The notes under the pieces are model-generated. The model made no database searches and was not told where the DNA came from. It was given only the letters and a program-made list of their open reading frames with translations. A program made the translations under genes and the position numbers. This document shows, piece by piece, positions 2,280 through 11,514 of a stretch of DNA of 20,128 nucleotides (position 1 is the first letter of the stretch; each line of letters opens with the position of its first letter). Source of the stretch: a virus. The DNA lies in IMG/VR virus record IMGVR_UViG_3300046010_009328, positions 1 through 20,128 of that record; one strand, written 5' to 3'.

Positions 2280-2508
2280 CTATCTTCGGAGCACAGACGG
2301 GAGGGTGCATGCCATCGACTGTCTTTATGAAGGTGCCAGCATTGAAGCGGGCATCCTTTGCCTTATGGCATTTCCAGAAGATACCATTAGAATTTCAAGC
2401 GAAGACCACTCTTTTTTAGTTGAAGTGCCCAAAGAATTTCGCTCTCAGAGTGAAAGGGTGAAGGTATTCAACGCCATTCTGAACGTTCTTGATCATGAGC
2501 AAGTATAG
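2269..2508 (+). CDS. Small hypothetical protein between Z-like gene and chaperones
   Basis: A 79-residue protein I do not recognise. ATG 2269 lies inside the end of the previous gene (stop 2277-2279) and its own TAG at 2506-2508 overlaps the start of the next gene, so it is embedded in the operon. It is acidic, has no signal peptide or membrane helix, and reads as a compact alpha/beta domain: an early strand (GRVHAIDCLY), a central strand pair (TIRISSEDHSFLVEVP) and a C-terminal helix (RVKVFNAILNVLDHE). Its position next to the tail assembly chaperones suggests a tail assembly role, but that is inference from neighbours only. Confidence 0.6.
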   Translation: MQLDYLRSTDGRVHAIDCLYEGASIEAGILCLMAFPEDTIRISSEDHSFLVEVPKEFRSQSERVKVFNAILNVLDHEQV

Positions 2509-3040
2509 TTTTCTTCTGCAAAGCGAAGAGCCTGAGTATTTTGAACTGACTCCTAAGGTGCGTCTTCGCAAGCATGGCGGATGGTTGGTCGCTGAAGGCA
2601 TTGAACAGGAAGAGCTGAGTAAAGCTCAAAGCCAGGCAACGATTCGTGCAGTGCAACTTGCCAAGCGCATTGCTACCGCCAAGAATATCCCCCTTGACGA
2701 AGCATTTGCACTGCTTCAAGGCGGTGCCGATATGACTGAAATGGAACTATTAAGTGATTTCACCGAAGAAACGCTTGGCATGATCAATAGTAGTGGCAGC
2801 GTAGAAAATGGCAACGCCCGCATGGTGACTGTCTTTATTCGCTGCCGTGGTGAAGGCCTGATTGGTGAAGAATGGTTGCCCCTTGACGACTGGTCTATTG
2901 AAGACACCAAAAACATGGGCCGCTCAACTATCGCCAAGGGAATGGAGTTTATCATGAGCGAGCAAGAAGCTGAAATCAAAGAGGCAGGACAAGCAAAAAA
3001 AGCGCCCCGCAAGACCAAGGAGGAGTTGCCGAGCAATTAG
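2495..3040 (+). CDS. Tail assembly chaperone, G-like (zero-frame product)
   Basis: The zero-frame product is 181 residues from ATG 2495 (a TTG six bases upstream is also in frame). Its start overlaps the end of the 79-aa gene. The N-terminal half contains small strands and a helix (LRKHGGWLVAEG, QATIRAVQLAKRIA); the C-terminus is charged and lysine-rich, ending KAPRKTKEELPSN. A gene here, directly before the tape measure, with a second frame linked by a slippery sequence, is the hallmark of the lambda G/GT chaperones, which bind the tape measure and recruit tube subunits. Sequence similarity to lambda gpG was not recognised; the assignment rests on gene order and on the frameshift signal near the 3' end. 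Confidence 0.75.
   Translation: MSKYSFLLQSEEPEYFELTPKVRLRKHGGWLVAEGIEQEELSKAQSQATIRAVQLAKRIATAKNIPLDEAFALLQGGADMTEMELLSDFTEETLGMINSSGSVENGNARMVTVFIRCRGEGLIGEEWLPLDDWSIEDTKNMGRSTIAKGMEFIMSEQEAEIKEAGQAKKAPRKTKEELPSN
2995..3001 (+). promoter_or_regulatory. Predicted -1 ribosomal frameshift slippery heptamer A_AAA_AAA
   Basis: In the G-like frame the codons read GCA AAA AAA GCG, giving the heptamer A_AAA_AAA at 2995-3001. Both tRNAs can re-pair after a one-base backward slip. It lies inside the only stretch where both frames are open (2974-3040), 37 bases before the zero-frame stop, and the -1 frame continues open to 3471. No other heptamer of the X_XXY_YYZ type was seen in that overlap. Confidence 0.75.
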
Positions 3041-3471
3041 AAAAACAAGCTCGGCAGTCCTTAAAAAACCTGACAAAATGGGACGAAATTTATTTTCGTC
3101 TTAATGCGTCAGATCTGAAAGACGACCGATGGAACACGAGTCACTTTGGGAAGCAGCGCGTAAAGGACATGGTAGCTGCATTGAAATGGCTGGAAAAATA
3201 TGACATTACGAAATACAACATTAACAGTATTGCCACGGCTAAGCTTGGCACTGTAGTGGTAGGAGCATTGGCTGGTAAGAAGGCCAAGGCGTCCGTTGAT
3301 GATTTCCTACCGTTTGACACGAAAAAGATCAAAAAGGAAAACGGGCTTTCCAATGAAAGCTTGGCGGTGCTGCAGAAATTAATGCGCACAACGAGATTAG
3401 ATGGAAGAGTTATTGCCTTGCTGGCAGATGAGTTAAAGACCGCTTCCTCGCGTGAAGTAAGCAATGATTAG
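3001..3471 (+). CDS. T-like extension of tail assembly chaperone (-1 frameshift product)
   Basis: Frame 1 is open from 2974 (after TGA 2971-2973) to TAG 3469-3471. It has no good start near its beginning; the first ATG, at 3169, would discard about a third of the frame and has only a weak purine-rich site. Read after a -1 slip at 2995-3001, it adds 156 residues to the first 169 of the G-like protein, for a fusion of about 325. The added part is mostly helical (EQLEKQARQSLKNL, QRVKDMVAALKWLEKY) and contains DDFLPFD, similar to the D-F-L-P-F type motif often seen near the end of T-type chaperones. In lambda the T domain recruits the tube protein to the tape measure complex; the same role is inferred here. 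Confidence 0.75.
   Translation, partial: SAPQDQGGVAEQLEKQARQSLKNLTKWDEIYFRLNASDLKDDRWNTSHFGKQRVKDMVAALKWLEKYDITKYNINSIATAKLGTVVVGALAGKKAKASVDDFLPFDTKKIKKENGLSNESLAVLQKLMRTTRLDGRVIALLADELKTASSREVSND
3017..3062 (+). other. Stem-loop downstream of the frameshift site
   Basis: TGCCGAGC (3027-3034) pairs perfectly with GCTCGGCA (3049-3056) around a 14-base loop that contains the zero-frame TAG. AAGGA (3017-3021) can extend the stem with TCCTT (3058-3062) across an unequal internal loop. With that extension it begins 15 bases after the slippery site, somewhat further than usual for a stimulatory element (about 5-9), so its role in frameshifting is uncertain. Confidence 0.5.
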
Positions 3472-3505: not shown

Positions 3506-6500
3506 ATGGCTGCGCCTAAGCTTCAGCTTGATGTAACGCTTAATCTTGCAGCGTTTCGTAAGGACTTAGGGAAAGTTGCACAGGCAGCGGCGGCATACTA
3601 TTACCCCGTCAATCTATTAATCAACAAGAAAAATTTTGAAGCGCAGTTAAAGGCTTTATCAAGAATTAAGCCAGTTATCAATATTGAGGATTCTCAGTTA
3701 ATTGGGGCACGGGCGCGTATCGCCACGCTCAATAAGAGCTTGGCCACTCTTCGCAGGGCCACTGCCACTCCCATTGAAATCAAAGTCAAGTACAAGGAAG
3801 AAGGAAGGCCCGCAGCGGGCGGTGGGGCAGTGGGGCGAGCCGTTATGGGCCGCGCTGGCGCAGAGCAAGCCTTAGAAAGTAAAAGTAGGGGAGAGTTGCA
3901 AAAGTTATATGCATTGTTTCGCGAAGCAAATCTTCAAGTTGGAGCGCTTAGCAAAGGTCTCGGAAAATCGAGTGCAGATGAAATAAGAGCGGCACTTGTT
4001 CCTGCATTTACTGATAGCGGAGAAGAGGCAGTCAATGGCTTGGCTATCGCCTTAAGAGATCCGTCTTCTAAGGTTGCGAAAGCAGCAGCAAGACTGGCAG
4101 AGGGAACTATTAAAGATACAAAAAAAGCGTTTGGCATTGCAAGTCCTTCGCGAGTATTCAAGAAAATTGGGCAAGATATTGTTGACGGCTTAGAGGTGGG
4201 CTTTCTTGATGACTTGAATATTTTCAAGAGCACCGCAGTGGCCGCAATGCGCCAGTTGATTGCGGCGATAAAAAGAGAAGCGAAAGTGGGTGGCATTGCA
4301 ATGGGGGGACTTTTGTCTCCCATTACAAAACCCTCTGGAGCTGCCACAAAAACTCTGCCTAGTGTTCTTTCTCCGTCACGTGCTGGTGCATCAACAGACC
4401 CTGGACGCGGAAACCAGAGGATCTTAAATTCATTATCATTGCTAACTGGCAATCCTGCTTTGTATCGAGGCAGGATGGCGAACCTGGGGACTGGGCGGCT
4501 TCCATCATCTTTGCTTGGGGCCGCACAATCTCAGTTTGACCTTGAAGAACTCGTTCCATCGTTTAAGCAGGCTCGACTTGCGAGCGGTGTATCTCCTTTA
4601 GACAAAATTATTGATGAAGCATTCTTTGGGAGGGGAACTCTTCCTAAGGCTCAAAGCGCACTTAACACCTTTAATAATTCCTTGGAGCGACTAGGTAGCA
4701 CCGCCAAGGCTGCATTGCCTTCGGGAATATTACAGAGCGCATCAGGAAATGCTCGCATGAAGGCGCCTGGAGGGGTAGCGCCAAGTCAAACTATGGGTAT
4801 TTTTGAGTCCACGGCTCGCCCTACGGTTTGGCCACCCTCAGGAGGATTTCTAGAGTTCTCCCGTCGTGCAACTGCAATTTCAGCGGGCCTTCCTGGGAAC
4901 GTGTTTGGCGGTAGGGGACGTGGAGGAGGCATGCCGCCAGGAGGAGGTGGCGGCGGTGGGCGAGGACCGGGCGGGGGTGGCGCTGTTCCCCCTGGCGGCT
5001 TCCCAGTGGACGACGCAATGGTTACGCGAACTGCCAGGCTTGGCACCGTTATGGATGTGGCCACTGCTTCCACCAGAAACTTCAGGGCCAGTCAAATTCC
5101 TCTTATTGGTGGAATCAGGGGGCTTGCCAGTGAATTTGGCGAGGCAACAAAGCAAGTGTTATTTTATGGCGCGGCTTACAAAAGTTTGGCGTTTTTAATA
5201 AACTTGCCCGGTCAAGTTCTGAACGCGGCAAAGAGCCAACAGCAATTTAATAATGCCTTACAGACTGCCACGCAAGATACTGGTACGTTTGCAAAAGAAC
5301 TTCTTTATGTAGATAATGTCCAGCGTGCATTTGGTCTTAATTTAGAAACCACTCGATCTGGCTTCACTCGTCTTTATGCTTCCATGGCCCCAACGGGCTT
5401 TGACTCGGGCTCCATTGAAAAACTCTTTACTGGCATCAGTGCAGCTACTGCCGCTCTGCAACTGACGCCTGACAAGGCGGAGCGAGTTATTTATGCCTTC
5501 GGGCAAATGGCTAGTAAGGGCCAAATCATGAGCGAAGAGCTTAAGGGGCAGTTGGGAGACGTGCTGCCTGGCGCTTTGGCTATTTTCTCTAAGGCCGCTG
5601 GAATGTCCGTGATGGAATTCAGCGAGGCAATGGAAGATGGAGAGTTCAAGGGCAAGCGATTTAGAGAAGTTTTCGCAAAAGTAAGCGACGAGCTGATGAA
5701 TCGCTTCGGCACTGGAGCACAGGCCGCCGGAAAATCGCTACAGGGTTTAATTAACACGGTAGGCGGTGACTTTCAGCGCACCTTGGAAAGCTTTGCACCA
5801 CTCGCCAACGCTGCAGCACAGGCAACTTTGGGTCCGCTTACTGGCATGTTGCGGGAGGTGTCAGTAGCAGCACAGCTTGCTATGGGCGAGCAGGACAGAG
5901 TAAGAAAACAATTAGAAGCCGCTCAATCAGATGCTTCTGCTTTGAGGGCCGGCGGAGCCGACGCGCAAGAGATTAAGGCTGCCGAGCAGAGTGTTGCAAC
6001 TTTAGCCGCTAAGTATGAATCTTTGAACGAAGCCGCCAAAGATCCTGCCATTGCTCAACAAGTAAAAAACATTGAAGCTTTTGTAGTTGAAATACAAAAA
6101 GCTGCTACTTTTACCATGAATTTGGCTGGAGTAATTGGAAATGTTTTGAATCCTATATTTACATTTTTAGGTGGAAATCTTACTTCAGTCATTGGAAATC
6201 TCGCATTGCTTGTGCTGGGCTTTAACGCGGCTAAGTTAGCGGCGCTGGTGTTTGTAGGGGCTATTTCGGCAATGAAAAGTATTGCTGGAATTAGCGCTGC
6301 CGGTGCTGCAGGGGCAAGTGTTTTAGCAACTGCATTGAGGCTTATTGGTATTCAAGCCACTGCAGCGCAGGTGGCGACTATTGGATTTAGCGTTGCAGTT
6401 AAAGGCTTGTTAATTAGCACCGGCATTGGAGCCGTGGTGGTGTTACTAGGATCTCTTGCTGCTGCATTTTTATCAGTAGGAGATAGTGCAAAAGAAGCAG

Positions 6501-9154
6501 CAGACAAGGCTAAGCGATCTATTGACTCAATGGCGGATGCCGCGAGAACTGGCAATGTCGCCACGATCGAGATGGACCTTGCCATCAACAAAGCCGATAG
6601 GCAAGATCTTGAAAACCTCATAAAAAGCATTGAGACGCTAGAGGTAAGAAAAGGGGCTAGAGGTATAGAGTTAATCACTTTGACGCCAGAACAAAGAAGA
6701 CAAGCAAAAAACTTGGGAATAGATGCAGGGAAAGAGATAAGCAAAGGGATCCTGCTTGATAAGCTGTTTGCGCGGCGGACACCATTGAAGCAAGTAGCAA
6801 CCGAAGGGCAACAGAATTTGGCCGACGCCAAACGAAGGGCTGAAAAACTTGGGCTTAACAAGCCCGATCCTTCTGTCATGGCAGCAGAAGAAGACTTGGA
6901 AGACAAAAAGAAAACAAGCCTTGAAAGCTACTACAGTCTCCAAGATCAACTTGCCAAAGCGCAAACGCAAGCTGACCTTGACCGCTTAAAGGCAGAGTTT
7001 GAACATAAACGAGCAATGATCAATGCAGAATACGATCTAAAAGAAGCGAAAGCTAATAGCTTCCAAAAGAAAGCTATCGCCTTCCAAAAGGAAATCTTTG
7101 CTATTACTTCCGAGCAAGATGCCGCTTTGTTCAAGAATAGGAGTAAAGTCTTAGCCGCAGCGGGAAGTGTGGCAGGAGGGGCTGGAGGTGGCGGCGGAGG
7201 GGGCGGCGGAACTGGTGCAATGTTTGGTGCCACTGGCAGGGTTTTTAATGCCCCAGGCTTTGTTCATGGGCATTTTCAAAACCAGAATCGTGAGGCTTTG
7301 GTTAAAGATGCGGTTGAAACCGTTATGGGTCTGTTGGGTCAAGGCGTTAGCCCTGAGCTTGGCAGCGGGGCTCGTTTTACTTCTGGCATGAATGCTAAAG
7401 AAGTAGAGGCTCTTGTCAGGCGTGGCATTGGATCTCATAAGCAATATGCAAGCGGCACTGGGGCTGTAGACATTTTCATGCCAAAGGGAACTCAGGTGCC
7501 CGTGCCCGTTTCTGGTATCCAGGATCTGAAAGGAGCTGCAGGGGTGACGGGTACGTTGCGTCATGGATCACAGTTAATGCACCTAGACCCCTCCTCTAAA
7601 GCGGTTGGGGGCGGCGCCGTGGCACCTGGAAAGGTCGCTCCCAGTATAAAAAGGAACGAACTGGCCGAGCAGCAAGTAGCTCTTACGGCAAGGGAAGCAA
7701 ATGCTTCTGCTGTGGAGAAAGAAGCAGAGGCCATTGCAAAGTTAGAAATAGCTACTGCCAATTACGTGCAATCTCTGCTGCCGACTGCAGAGCAATCTCT
7801 TCAAAATCAGCTACTACAGCAACGTATTACGCTGACGCAAAATAGCTTCTCGCCAGAAATTCTAGAAGCACAATTGGCTTTTGCCGAGCAGGAGTTGCAA
7901 GTTGCAGAAAGTATAAAACTAAATACCGAAAGAATTAATGAACTGACAGCGGCTGGCAGCAAAGACGTAAAAGGAATCAAGGCGTTAACTGATGCTAATA
8001 ATCAACTCAAGGCAAATCTTCCCGTGTCCGCTATTCAACTACTTACCAAGGCAATTGACGATCAAGTGTTGTCGTTAGTGCAACGCACTAAGACGGCGGA
8101 ACGAGATGCGGCTGACCAGGAAAGGGTGAATGGTTTGATCATTGGAGGCATGACACGCCAAGCAGCAGAAGCAAAGGTAACTGCTGAAAACCTAAGGAGT
8201 GACTATAAGAAGGCGTTAGAAGAAGCGACGAAGCAAGTTGAAATTGCTGCTGCCGCCGAAGAAGTTTTAGCTGCGGCAAGACGACTAGGAAAGAAAGAAA
8301 CTGCAGAGCAAACGGCGGAATACAACAGGCTTGCACAGGCTCTTAAGGATGCCAAAGATAAAAAAGATAAACTTGAGAAGAGGGCGCCAGAAGTGGAGGG
8401 AGCAGGAGCAGGCATCGAAGCATCGGCAGCTCCTAAGACTGCCTCTAGTTACATTGCAGATGGTTTATCGGCGGCGCAAGAAAGGCTTGCAGAGCTTACC
8501 AATACTGGCTATCAAGTGGTGCAAGCCGCCAACTCTATTGGAAATGCTTTTGGAGAAGCGTTCAAAGGCGTTATTACTGGCAGCATGACTGCGCGAGAGG
8601 CTCTTGCGGGTTTCTTCCAAAGTGTTGCAGATCACTTTGCCGACATGGTGGCAAATATGATTGCCGAATATTTGAAGATGGCGCTCATCAAGGGAATCAT
8701 GAGCCTGATTCCAGGACTGGGAAGCTTTGGAGGAGGTGCAGCAGTTGGGCAAGCGGTTTCTATGCCGACAGGCGTGGGAATAGGGGCCGGCGGAGGTATT
8801 TTGCAAAACAGCGCAGCGCAAGGCTTTGGCACTTTTGGGCCAAACTTTGGCATTCGCCAATTTGCCAACGGAGGCATCGTCACTGGCCCCACGCTGGGCC
8901 TTGTAGGCGAGGGTCGTTACAATGAGGCAATTATTCCTATGCCCAATGGCAAAAGCGTTCCAGTGGAGCTTGGCGGGGCCATGGGCAGTCCCATTACGAG
9001 CAACATCGTGGTCAACGTCAGCTCTGATGGTAAAACTTCTTCTTCTAACACTGGCTCCGATTCTGCCGGTCTTGGTCGCCGTCTTGAAGGCGCAGTGAAG
9101 CAAGTTATCGTGGATGAACTGCGTCCTGGTGGTCTTCTGTCGGGGAGGCGCTAA
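3506..9154 (+). CDS. Tape measure protein
   Basis: An 1882-residue protein that sets tail length and is ejected with the DNA. The start is fixed by an in-frame TAG at 3488-3490, with ATG 3506 the first start after it. Parts in order: N-terminal segment with the common tape-measure motif around FGIASPSRVFKKIG (about 160-240); glycine-rich linker (467-498); a conserved tape-measure N-terminal domain of the TIGR02675 type (about 550-755, including GQIMSEELKGQLGDVLPGAL); a long hydrophobic stretch with probable membrane-spanning helices (about 870-995); charged helical coiled coil; a second glycine linker (about 1217-1235); a possible M23-like peptidase segment (about 1250-1365); more coiled coil; and a C-terminal part with GGIVTGPTLGLVGEGRYNEA, typical of tape measures. 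By the usual 1.5 angstrom per residue, the tail would be near 280 nm, an upper estimate if the globular parts do not span the tube. Confidence 0.95.
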   Translation: MAAPKLQLDVTLNLAAFRKDLGKVAQAAAAYYYPVNLLINKKNFEAQLKALSRIKPVINIEDSQLIGARARIATLNKSLATLRRATATPIEIKVKYKEEGRPAAGGGAVGRAVMGRAGAEQALESKSRGELQKLYALFREANLQVGALSKGLGKSSADEIRAALVPAFTDSGEEAVNGLAIALRDPSSKVAKAAARLAEGTIKDTKKAFGIASPSRVFKKIGQDIVDGLEVGFLDDLNIFKSTAVAAMRQLIAAIKREAKVGGIAMGGLLSPITKPSGAATKTLPSVLSPSRAGASTDPGRGNQRILNSLSLLTGNPALYRGRMANLGTGRLPSSLLGAAQSQFDLEELVPSFKQARLASGVSPLDKIIDEAFFGRGTLPKAQSALNTFNNSLERLGSTAKAALPSGILQSASGNARMKAPGGVAPSQTMGIFESTARPTVWPPSGGFLEFSRRATAISAGLPGNVFGGRGRGGGMPPGGGGGGGRGPGGGGAVPPGGFPVDDAMVTRTARLGTVMDVATASTRNFRASQIPLIGGIRGLASEFGEATKQVLFYGAAYKSLAFLINLPGQVLNAAKSQQQFNNALQTATQDTGTFAKELLYVDNVQRAFGLNLETTRSGFTRLYASMAPTGFDSGSIEKLFTGISAATAALQLTPDKAERVIYAFGQMASKGQIMSEELKGQLGDVLPGALAIFSKAAGMSVMEFSEAMEDGEFKGKRFREVFAKVSDELMNRFGTGAQAAGKSLQGLINTVGGDFQRTLESFAPLANAAAQATLGPLTGMLREVSVAAQLAMGEQDRVRKQLEAAQSDASALRAGGADAQEIKAAEQSVATLAAKYESLNEAAKDPAIAQQVKNIEAFVVEIQKAATFTMNLAGVIGNVLNPIFTFLGGNLTSVIGNLALLVLGFNAAKLAALVFVGAISAMKSIAGISAAGAAGASVLATALRLIGIQATAAQVATIGFSVAVKGLLISTGIGAVVVLLGSLAAAFLSVGDSAKEAADKAKRSIDSMADAARTGNVATIEMDLAINKADRQDLENLIKSIETLEVRKGARGIELITLTPEQRRQAKNLGIDAGKEISKGILLDKLFARRTPLKQVATEGQQNLADAKRRAEKLGLNKPDPSVMAAEEDLEDKKKTSLESYYSLQDQLAKAQTQADLDRLKAEFEHKRAMINAEYDLKEAKANSFQKKAIAFQKEIFAITSEQDAALFKNRSKVLAAAGSVAGGAGGGGGGGGGTGAMFGATGRVFNAPGFVHGHFQNQNREALVKDAVETVMGLLGQGVSPELGSGARFTSGMNAKEVEALVRRGIGSHKQYASGTGAVDIFMPKGTQVPVPVSGIQDLKGAAGVTGTLRHGSQLMHLDPSSKAVGGGAVAPGKVAPSIKRNELAEQQVALTAREANASAVEKEAEAIAKLEIATANYVQSLLPTAEQSLQNQLLQQRITLTQNSFSPEILEAQLAFAEQELQVAESIKLNTERINELTAAGSKDVKGIKALTDANNQLKANLPVSAIQLLTKAIDDQVLSLVQRTKTAERDAADQERVNGLIIGGMTRQAAEAKVTAENLRSDYKKALEEATKQVEIAAAAEEVLAAARRLGKKETAEQTAEYNRLAQALKDAKDKKDKLEKRAPEVEGAGAGIEASAAPKTASSYIADGLSAAQERLAELTNTGYQVVQAANSIGNAFGEAFKGVITGSMTAREALAGFFQSVADHFADMVANMIAEYLKMALIKGIMSLIPGLGSFGGGAAVGQAVSMPTGVGIGAGGGILQNSAAQGFGTFGPNFGIRQFANGGIVTGPTLGLVGEGRYNEAIIPMPNGKSVPVELGGAMGSPITSNIVVNVSSDGKTSSSNTGSDSAGLGRRLEGAVKQVIVDELRPGGLLSGRR

Positions 9155-9157
9155 ATT

Positions 9158-9511
9158 ATGACCCAACCCACTTTTGCCATTGCTTGCGAATACGGCCTTA
9201 CGGTTCAGCGTGGTAATCGCACAAAGCGCGTACAATTTGGCGATGGTTATGAGCAAATTAGCCCCGAAGCGATTAACAATGACATTCGTTCTTACCAAAT
9301 TGATACTGTTCCTATTTCAGACGAAGCAGCCATCGCCCTTGACGCTCAACTCTCAGCGTTGAATGGCGACTTCTTCTATTCACAGTTCTTCATGGATGAT
9401 CGCAAATACAAATATCGACTAGAGCCAAATCAATGGCAATGGAGAACCATTGGTCCCAACAGCAATGTGTTTTCCTTTTCTGTAAGGAGGATATATGACC
9501 CTAGAAGCTGA
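9158..9511 (+). CDS. Minor tail protein, lambda gpM-like
   Basis: A 117-residue protein three bases after the tape measure stop, with GGGAGG at 9143-9148 as its ribosome binding site. It carries the hallmark of the phage minor tail family that includes lambda gpM: VQFGDGYEQ followed by an invariant-type P-x-x-IN, then a helix (EAAIALDAQLSALNGDFFY) and a C-terminal W-x-W segment ending in a strand-rich FSFSVRRIY. In lambda, M acts in building the tail tip and is thought to sit where the tip meets the tape measure. The gene order M-L-K-I-J continues without a break downstream. The next gene starts inside its 3' end. Confidence 0.85.
   Translation: MTQPTFAIACEYGLTVQRGNRTKRVQFGDGYEQISPEAINNDIRSYQIDTVPISDEAAIALDAQLSALNGDFFYSQFFMDDRKYKYRLEPNQWQWRTIGPNSNVFSFSVRRIYDPRS
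9483..9490 (+). promoter_or_regulatory. Strong Shine-Dalgarno deciding the gpL-like start
   Basis: TAAGGAGG at 9483-9490 matches the full anti-Shine-Dalgarno sequence and sits four bases before ATG 9495, inside the 3' end of the M-like gene. It is the best ribosome binding site in the window and firmly places the start of the L-like gene. Confidence 0.8.
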
Positions 9512-10178
9512 TGTACAACAAGGGTGGCATGATGCCATTGTTGAACTGTTTGATCTTGATCTAGAGCCTATTACAGGGGATCCTCAGGATAAGTTCTATT
9601 TCACCACACAGTTGAAGCCAGACGAAGCAAAGATTGTCTGGCAAGGGCGCACTTACGAGCCGTTGCCTATCCTGGCAGCAGGTTATGAACGCAGCACCAC
9701 CGGGCAAGTTGCTCAGCCATCGCTCACGGTGGCAAATGTCCTAGGAACATTTACGCAGGTCATCAGCAGCCTTGATGACATGGTGGGTGCAAAAGTAACA
9801 AGGCGCCGCACTTTGGGCAAATATCTTGATGGAGAACCGCAAGCGGATTCCACCCAGGAATTCCCATTGGACATCTTTTTTATTGAGCGCAAAACAGCAG
9901 AAAATGCGCTCACCATTTCTTGGCAACTTGCAAGCGTCTTAGATCTAGAAGGCTTGTCATTGCCACGTCGCATTGTCACGCAAAATTACTGTCAATGGAA
10001 ATACAGAAGTAGCGAATGTGGCTATGTAGGAGGGCCAGTGGCGACAGTGAATGATACGCCCACGTCCAACCCAGATCTTGATATTTGCGGCAAAAGAGTG
10101 CAAAGTTGTCAGCTAAGATTTCCAAACCAATCTCTTCCTTTTGGGGGATTTCCTGGGGCAATTAGAGGAAGACAATGA
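9495..10178 (+). CDS. Minor tail protein, lambda gpL-like, with four C-terminal cysteines
   Basis: A 227-residue protein with the two-part layout of lambda gpL: an N-terminal beta domain (IVELFDLDLEPITG, then IVWQGRTYEPLPILAAGYERSTTGQ, like the family's G-x-x-Y-x-x-x-P-I-x-x-x-G-F-E) and a C-terminal cysteine domain. The cysteines are C166, C175, C198 and C205, spaced C-x8-C and C-x6-C, with CGYVGG after the second. Lambda gpL is reported to bind an iron-sulphur cluster through its C-terminal domain; the same is likely here but not shown by sequence alone. It belongs to the tail tip hub. It overlaps the M-like gene by 17 bases and the K-like gene by four (ATGA). Confidence 0.85.
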   Translation: MTLEADVQQGWHDAIVELFDLDLEPITGDPQDKFYFTTQLKPDEAKIVWQGRTYEPLPILAAGYERSTTGQVAQPSLTVANVLGTFTQVISSLDDMVGAKVTRRRTLGKYLDGEPQADSTQEFPLDIFFIERKTAENALTISWQLASVLDLEGLSLPRRIVTQNYCQWKYRSSECGYVGGPVATVNDTPTSNPDLDICGKRVQSCQLRFPNQSLPFGGFPGAIRGRQ

Positions 10179-10876
10179 GCTGGCAATCGCTGAAAGACGA
10201 GCTGAGAAGCTATGCACACTCAAGGCCCAACGAAGAGGTGTGTGGAATTATTGCAAAGGGCGAATTCTTTCCCTGCTCAAACATTCATTCCTCTCCATCG
10301 AAAAACTTTGGCATTTCCGCTGAAGACTACGCAAAAGCGGAGCGCTTGGGAATTGAGGCTATTTTTCATTCGCACACTGGCTTTAACAACAGATTTAGTA
10401 AGCATGATATTGCGTCATGCAAGACAATCAATTTGCCATGGGTAATGTATTGCATTGGCACTAATAGTTGGCATGAAATGGATCCCACCGGCAATGCGCC
10501 TTATTTGGAAAGGCCATGGATTTATGGTGTGTATGATTGCTATGGCCTGGTAAGGGATTATTTCAGGAAAGAGTATGACATTACACTTGATGACTATGAA
10601 AGAGAAAGTGAGTTTGAATGGAGAAGCAGCGAGTGGCGCATGTTTGAAAAGAACTTTGTTGGACAAGGCTTCGTAGAAATTGACAAGCCTCAACGAGGGG
10701 ATGTGTTGCTAATGCAGCTTCAGTCTGATTTTCCGAATCACGTGGGTATTATTCACGATCCCAGTAAGAATATCTTTTATCAGCATTTGCTAGATAGACT
10801 GTCTGAAGCCAATGTCTATGGTGGTTATTGGCGAAAATGCACAGTTAAAGTGTTGCGTCACAAGAGCCTGTTGTAA
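10175..10876 (+). CDS. Tail tip peptidoglycan hydrolase, lambda gpK-like (JAMM + NlpC/P60)
   Basis: A 233-residue protein with two domains, as in lambda gpK. The N-terminal Mov34/JAMM metalloprotease-like domain has E21 (in EEVCG), H65 and H67 (FHSHT), S75 and D78, matching the E...H-x-H-x7-S-x2-D zinc signature exactly. The C-terminal NlpC/P60 domain has C122 (YDCYGLVRDYF), H189 (NHVGI) and a third polar residue H204 (YQHL), a complete catalytic set. Such proteins cut peptide cross-links of the cell wall during DNA entry or process tail components. Both active sites look intact, so both activities may be functional. It starts with an ATGA overlap after the L-like gene, behind an AGAGGAAG ribosome binding site, and ends in a TAATG overlap with the next gene. 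Confidence 0.93.
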   Translation: MSWQSLKDELRSYAHSRPNEEVCGIIAKGEFFPCSNIHSSPSKNFGISAEDYAKAERLGIEAIFHSHTGFNNRFSKHDIASCKTINLPWVMYCIGTNSWHEMDPTGNAPYLERPWIYGVYDCYGLVRDYFRKEYDITLDDYERESEFEWRSSEWRMFEKNFVGQGFVEIDKPQRGDVLLMQLQSDFPNHVGIIHDPSKNIFYQHLLDRLSEANVYGGYWRKCTVKVLRHKSLL

Positions 10877-11514
10877 TGAAACTGATTGAAGTGAAACTGT
10901 TGGGAGAATTGGGCCGTAAGTTTGGCCGTAAGTTTCGCTTCATGGCGTCATCGCCTCGTGATGTGATGTCAGCTCTTTGCAATCAATTGGAAGGCTTCAA
11001 GGAATACATGGCTTCAGCTCACGAGAAAGGCGTGGGCTTTCGGCTGGTCAATGATAATGATGAAGGCATGGATTACGACAATCTGATCATGCCTTGTAAT
11101 CGCTTGATTATTGCCCCCATCGTTACTGGTGGCGGTTCAGTGGGTCGTATTCTTTTGGGCGTAGCGTTGGTAGCGCTGTCTTTTGTGAGCTTTGGCGCTG
11201 GCATTGGTTTTGCTGGTTTCACTTCTGTGGTGGCGGCAAAAGCTGCTGGCACTGCAGCAGGCTTTTCTTTGGGTAGTGGCATTTTGTTCAACTTGGGCCT
11301 CGGCTTGGTATTAACTGGTGTTGCTTCTTTGCTCACGCCTCAGCAGCAAGTTGCCACCCCTTCCGACTCAGAGCGTAAAGATAGCTTCTTGTTTGATCGA
11401 ACCACGGAACTCACCACTCAAGGTCAGCCCATTCCATTGCTTTATGGCCGTTTCCTTGCGGCTTCTCCATTGGTTATTTCGTCTGCAATCAGCACCCAAC
11501 AGGTGCCCGTGTAA
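10876..11514 (+). CDS. Tail assembly protein, lambda gpI-like
   Basis: A 212-residue protein with the layout of lambda tail assembly protein I. The first 80 residues look like a small ubiquitin-like fold (MKLIEVKLLGELGRKFG at the start, NRLIIAPIVTGG at its end). A hydrophobic, glycine/alanine-rich stretch follows (about residues 90-155, from GRILLGVALVALSF), with one or two possible membrane helices. The last part contains QGQPIPLLYGRFLAASPLVIS, a motif typical of this family. In lambda, I is needed for tip assembly, though its place in the final virion is unclear. Its start and the next gene's start both use TAATG overlaps, so K, I and J are probably translated in tight coupling. Confidence 0.88.
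   Translation: MKLIEVKLLGELGRKFGRKFRFMASSPRDVMSALCNQLEGFKEYMASAHEKGVGFRLVNDNDEGMDYDNLIMPCNRLIIAPIVTGGGSVGRILLGVALVALSFVSFGAGIGFAGFTSVVAAKAAGTAAGFSLGSGILFNLGLGLVLTGVASLLTPQQQVATPSDSERKDSFLFDRTTELTTQGQPIPLLYGRFLAASPLVISSAISTQQVPV

Follow-up and report, generated by a model that had tools for sequence, protein, structure and literature searches.

A predicted lambda-type -1 ribosomal frameshift in the putative tail assembly chaperone frames of an uncultured virus related to cyanophage S-CBS4

The G and T reading frames and the conserved heptamer

The DNA analyzed here, referred to as the window, is a stretch of 20,128 bases whose source is an IMG/VR virus record. Two overlapping open frames, G and T, sit directly 5' of a tape measure gene, which is followed by further tail genes:

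2495..3040, plus strand: G, putative zero-frame tail assembly chaperone of 181 aa plus the stop codon TAG at 3038-3040, assigned from its MSKYSF start and its position before the tape measure gene
2995..3001, plus strand: slippery heptamer A_AAA_AAA, in phase, kept or replaced in 83 of 83 junctions with a -1 relation
3001..3471, plus strand: T, putative -1 extension of 156 codons after slippage plus a stop codon, assigned from its dN/dS of 0.02 to 0.10, its alignment and the lack of an early start
3506..9154, plus strand: tape measure protein, 1,882 aa, TIGR02675 above cut-off
9158..11514, plus strand: minor tail genes M, L, K and I, ordered as in lambda, assigned from Pfam and phrog_32

The zero frame begins at ATG 2495 and reads the heptamer as part of the codons GCA AAA AAA, so that its two lysines are residues 168 and 169. 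The -1 frame has no stop codon from 2974 until 3469-3471 and overlaps the zero frame over 2974-3040. The first-pass annotation, which proposed that a -1 programmed frameshift joins the two frames, had placed A_AAA_AAA at 2995-3001 within this overlap, and both the coordinates and the canonical phase are right. The MSKYSF start of G was kept in every relative having that end. Downstream, the M, L and K genes matched PF05939, PF05100 and NlpC/P60 plus JAB, all above the Pfam cut-offs, and the I gene was assigned by phrog_32. Family search of the window did not identify a major tail protein gene.

The identity of the two proteins was examined by sequence and by predicted structure. G matched no family in Pfam, PHROG or NCBIfam, and a PDB sequence search with G gave no relevant match. 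T showed a weak match to phrog_337, "tail protein" (best E value, 0.0075), and neither G nor T gave a confident match to the named chaperone families. Structure prediction from alignments of 17 to 18 rows reached a pLDDT of 65.5 for G and 53.6 for T, and Foldseek comparison of these low-confidence models with viral and PDB libraries returned nothing usable.

Relatives were collected by single-sequence and alignment scans of IMG/VR, a phage collection and one genome scan, resulting in 85 distinct junctions from IMG/VR, phage S-CBS4 and one MAG contig. T lay at -1 relative to G in 83 of the 85. All 83 of these junctions carried an in-phase heptamer before the G stop codon (A_AAA_AAA in 74, G_GGA_AAA in 8 and A_AAA_AAC in 1), the compared sequences being kin and the counts therefore not independent trials. 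The last base of the heptamer was A in 82 junctions, C in 1 and G in none. Close relatives that had lost the heptamer, which the first-pass annotation had named as evidence against a frameshift, were not seen, since the site was either kept or swapped throughout. As for codon usage, the lysine codons of the heptamer were AAA in 69 of 69 and 52 of 52 aligned G genes with lysine there, while eight other conserved lysine columns of G were mostly AAG (AAA, 194; AAG, 372). This uniformity holds although synonymous sites in T are close to saturation. The G stop codon fell 16 to 73 nt past the first base of the heptamer, the distance being 43 nt in 51 of the 83 junctions. Moreover, certain relatives have a -1 frame that becomes open only 3 nt 5' of the heptamer, which pins the point of entry.

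Chance occurrence of such sites was evaluated in the window and in the homologous genes. Across 20 forward genes of the window, comprising 6,497 codon positions, there were 26 in-frame heptamers of the X_XXY_YYZ type, and only the one at 2995-3001 led into an extended -1 frame, of 156 codons, close to the end of its gene. At other positions of the homologous G genes, such heptamers were found in frame 5 times in 12,468 codon positions. A second in-phase A_AAA_AAA was observed within the tape measure gene, at 4120-4126, and is probably incidental, because the -1 frame there closes within 19 codons.

Two junctions (L113 and L148) had G and T in a single frame. In both, frame disagreements were observed 5' of the junction, and these look like single-base indels, either real or due to assembly. 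The only match from the genome collection (L234, NYTN01000090.1) is a 12.7-kb contig of a Rhodobiaceae MAG, placed in an alphaproteobacterial bin; it may be a misbinned phage rather than a prophage.

Stem-loop and Shine-Dalgarno-like sequences around the heptamer

Two further features flank the heptamer:

3020..3062, plus strand: stem-loop with an 8-bp core (3027-3034 with 3049-3056) and 14 pairs in total; stable, its inner pairs unconserved and without covariation
2981..2988, plus strand: weak Shine-Dalgarno-like GAGGCAGG, its GAGG ending 10 nt before the heptamer; duplex energy, -6.6 kcal/mol

The core stem is perfect and closes a 14-nt loop containing the TAG of G, as had been described in the first-pass annotation. 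By RNA folding, the core grows to 14 pairs with one bulge over 3020-3062, and the spacer from the heptamer is 25 nt to the core and 18 nt to the extended stem, which matches the 15 to 25 bases given earlier. The hairpin greatly exceeds shuffled sequences in stability, with z scores of -3.9 for 3002-3076 and -5.9 for 3010-3070 and no shuffle equally stable, a result that would favor a frameshift that is real but depends on this 3' stem-loop enclosing the G stop codon or on a pseudoknot that includes it. Consistent with such dependence, the corresponding segment of the nearest relatives (L074-L076) forms a moderately stable fold (z of -2.7 to -3.1 at +18), and the outer five pairs were kept in 17 to 21 of 21 close relatives. 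Nevertheless, in the same 21 relatives the inner A-U pair fails in 18 and the inner G-C pair in 11, the losses extending even to near relatives; covariation in the stem did not rise above that of shuffles, and RNAalifold found no consensus stem. Both arms also fall in conserved codons, and the spacer of 18 to 25 nt lies beyond the usual stimulator spacing of 5 to 9 nt, at most about 15 nt (PMC5009743). We therefore consider that dependence on the stem is improbable.

The stem as a conserved stimulator was rejected by the pair counts on the 21 relatives and by RNAalifold, and the earlier view of the stem as part of the frameshift signal did not survive the lost inner pairs, the missing covariation and the distance from the heptamer. 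A 3' hairpin 5 to 9 nt past the heptamer, as in signals of the dnaX type, is lacking in the window. The stem-loop is probably not an essential stimulator, and this distant hairpin would be a minor modulator at most. Since L074-L076 fold moderately stably at +18, a small lineage-local role of the stem may exist in the window and its nearest relatives.

Next, Shine-Dalgarno-like sequences were evaluated on both sides of the heptamer. Upstream, the window has only the weak GAGGCAGG, whose duplex is no better than that of synonymous shuffles (p 0.35); it is a possible weak 5' stimulator. Many lineages carry GGAGG 7 to 16 nt 5' of the site, S-CBS4 having it at 16 nt. Overall, the upstream signal is stronger than in the rest of G (-9.1 versus -2.7 kcal/mol), and against synonymous shuffles it stands out in some lineages only (p 0.01 to 0.06). 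The upstream signal is in good part explained by the E/K/A-rich peptide encoded there, and it probably does not act as a general element. Downstream, AAGGAGG is found at 3017-3023, where the first-pass annotation had located it.

Stable folds soon after the heptamer were also scanned. A 45-nt fold starting at +4 gave a z score below -2 in 22% of the junctions, compared with 4 to 12% upstream in G; the enrichment at +4 is modest, and the scan at +60 likewise gave 22%. Clear hairpins soon after the heptamer were seen in L196/L197 and L043. The only A_AAA_AAC junction (L216) has a potential 13-pair stem, with G-U pairs allowed, a few bases 3' of the heptamer, which possibly compensates for a less slippery site. 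In our reading, the heptamer would be the constant part of the signal, and the 5' Shine-Dalgarno-like and 3' hairpin stimulators would be optional and lineage dependent. As to the question raised in the first-pass annotation, pseudoknot or heptamer alone, we lean toward a signal consisting of the heptamer alone, or of the heptamer with weak, lineage-specific help.

Exchange of the heptamer and other readings of the two frames

A maximum-likelihood tree of 76 G+T proteins was used to place the heptamer variants. Seven G_GGA_AAA rows formed one clade (support, 100/99) within a wider clade that also contains A_AAA_AAA (99/97). Three contigs (L146, L149 and L152) have GGGAAAAAAAC, in which G_GGA_AAA and A_AAA_AAA overlap in phase, followed by a GCCGGA/TCCGGC hairpin. 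These contigs are not sisters of the G_GGA_AAA clade, so they indicate that a double site can exist and do not speak for it as the intermediate.

The exchange of one tandem-slippage heptamer for another bears on the possibility that RNA polymerase slips at the A7 run, generating mRNAs in which the run has gained one A (or lost two), so that the frames are fused with no slip of the ribosome. The A7 homopolymer is kept in nearly all relatives, and two have A8, as polymerase slippage might predict. However, GGGAAAA replaces A7 in one clade, leaving a run of just four A's, and slippage by the bacterial enzyme has been documented on runs of about 8 to 9 or more (PMC3711429, PMC5009743). The runs in this family are not lengthened, A7 being dominant. 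An exchange of this kind fits slippage by the ribosome, not by a polymerase that needs a longer homopolymer, and we regard the polymerase explanation as very unlikely.

We then considered whether T could be made independently of G, either from a start codon within its own frame or by ribosomes that re-initiate once G has terminated. AAGGAGG at 3017-3023 resembles a ribosome-binding site, ATG 3169 is in frame, and S-CBS4 is annotated with a separate gp033. Against this, no ATG, GTG or TTG of the -1 frame precedes the site in any of the 83 junctions. After the site there is no conserved start either, the first one lying at codon 8 to 86 and differing between relatives. A conserved separate start for the second frame, which the first-pass annotation had named as contrary evidence, was thus absent among the 83 junctions. 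In the window, the first start past the site is ATG 3169, 56 codons in, in line with the earlier statement that the -1 frame runs to 3471 without a well-placed start. As a start signal, AAGGAGG was rejected: it reads AAGGAAG in the nearest relatives, and no -1-frame start follows closely. T itself is under strong purifying selection, with a dN/dS of 0.02 to 0.10 and synonymous sites near saturation, and in the alignment its conserved residues begin upstream of any start. In addition, separate translation leaves the constraint on the heptamer unexplained, and its chances appear slim indeed. Instead, as in lambda-type pairs, T is predicted to be made only as a fusion with G.

Finally, although homopolymers are error prone and L113 and L148 show indel-like frame disagreements, an artifact of sequencing or assembly within the A run can practically be dismissed, given that the same -1 relation with a slippery heptamer recurs across many metagenomes, in 83 distinct junctions, and in the cultured S-CBS4.

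Proposed mechanism and comparison with known systems

Overall, we interpret the region 2974-3062 as a predicted -1 programmed ribosomal frameshift of the lambda G/GT type, with a probability of roughly 0.93. The proposal that such a frameshift joins G and T finds strong support in the heptamer in 83 of 83 junctions, the selection on T, the lack of a T start and the gene order. In the proposed mechanism, most ribosomes would read G to TAG 3038-3040 and produce the 181-aa chaperone. In a minority, the two lysyl-tRNAs on AAA AAA at 2996-3001 would re-pair one base back, at 2995-3000, and the shifted ribosomes would go on reading AGC GCC CCG and so forth in the -1 frame, resulting in a 325-aa G-T fusion. 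If the proteins act as in lambda, G would coat the tape measure protein, and recruitment of the major tail protein would fall to the T extension. We infer the slippage, its low rate and the chaperone roles of G and GT from these comparisons.

In E. coli reporters, A_AAA_AAA alone gave 10% frameshifting, and tail chaperone cassettes gave 6 to 7% (PMC3711429). A_AAA_AAA is less shifty than A_AAA_AAG in E. coli (PMC5009743), which, together with a window that has no close stimulator, counts against the frameshift reading. A final heptamer base that is A or C and never G would fit a need for a low frameshift rate. The missing confident match of G and T to a chaperone family and their poor fold models count against the lambda-type reading. 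A broader scheme, which we put forward tentatively and consider rather doubtful as a whole, is that the heptamer is the sole constant, its last base A and never G; that A_AAA_AAA and G_GGA_AAA are swapped as tuning; that stimulators are gained and lost; and that the hairpin enclosing the G stop codon in the window may modulate the ratio in an unconventional manner.

The family now has a well-supported G/GT annotation, absent from the searched family libraries and from the S-CBS4 record, which covers aquatic cyanophages and their uncultured relatives. G/GT frameshifting is itself already known, being widely conserved in long-tailed phages (PMC5009743, PMC3711429, PMC10885494); what is new here is a family that had lacked this annotation and in which the changes of the signal are well documented. 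A natural swap of heptamers, together with the turnover of stimulators, offers a comparison for how a phage keeps its chaperone ratio constant.

Among isolated phages, homologues of both proteins (G, 65%; T, 55%) were found only in S-CBS4, a Synechococcus phage, so Synechococcus is the probable host. Its gp032 and gp033 are homologous to G and T and share the in-phase A_AAA_AAA. Unlike the window, S-CBS4 lacks a distant stem of this kind and carries a strong GGAGG 16 nt 5' of the heptamer, and its G and T are annotated as two separate hypothetical proteins. In its record (NC_016766.1; L072, 9073-9974), gp033 starts about 200 nt past the end of gp032, indicating that the record misses the frameshift along with the N-terminal portion of T and shows T truncated. 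The annotated start of gp032 also falls downstream of the conserved MSKYSF start. We found no report of G/GT frameshifting in S-CBS4-like phages in the literature searched, most subscription journals lying outside the search.

An unrelated cyanosiphovirus, Cyanophage KBS-S-2A (L073, 8062-8588; CPKG_00058 and the gap after it), has an in-phase A_AAA_AAC directly before the stop codon of a small gene 5' of its tape measure gene. An unannotated -1 frame of 62 codons (8400-8588) follows this heptamer, and a second unannotated G/GT frameshift is likely there, judging from its sequence.

E. coli dnaX, with A_AAA_AAG, an upstream Shine-Dalgarno sequence and a downstream hairpin, shares the A-rich tandem lysine slippage, and several relatives of the window show an upstream GGAGG, a close 3' hairpin or both. 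In contrast to dnaX, the window has no strong upstream Shine-Dalgarno sequence or close hairpin, and the heptamer of the family never ends in G.

In lambda, G and GT are made at a ratio of about 30:1 (PMC5009743). By architecture, heptamer, absence of a T start and gene order, the pair described here is assigned as a predicted lambda-type G/GT pair. It differs from lambda in having mainly A_AAA_AAA and in that G and T show no detectable homology to named chaperone families. As in lambda, the overlapping frames lie just 5' of the tape measure gene with the second frame at -1, a conserved tandem-slippage heptamer sits near the G end (83 of 83), T lacks its own start, and the genes downstream run in the order H, M, L, K, I. 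The slippery site of lambda is G_GGA_AAG, and a sister clade even has G_GGA_AAA.
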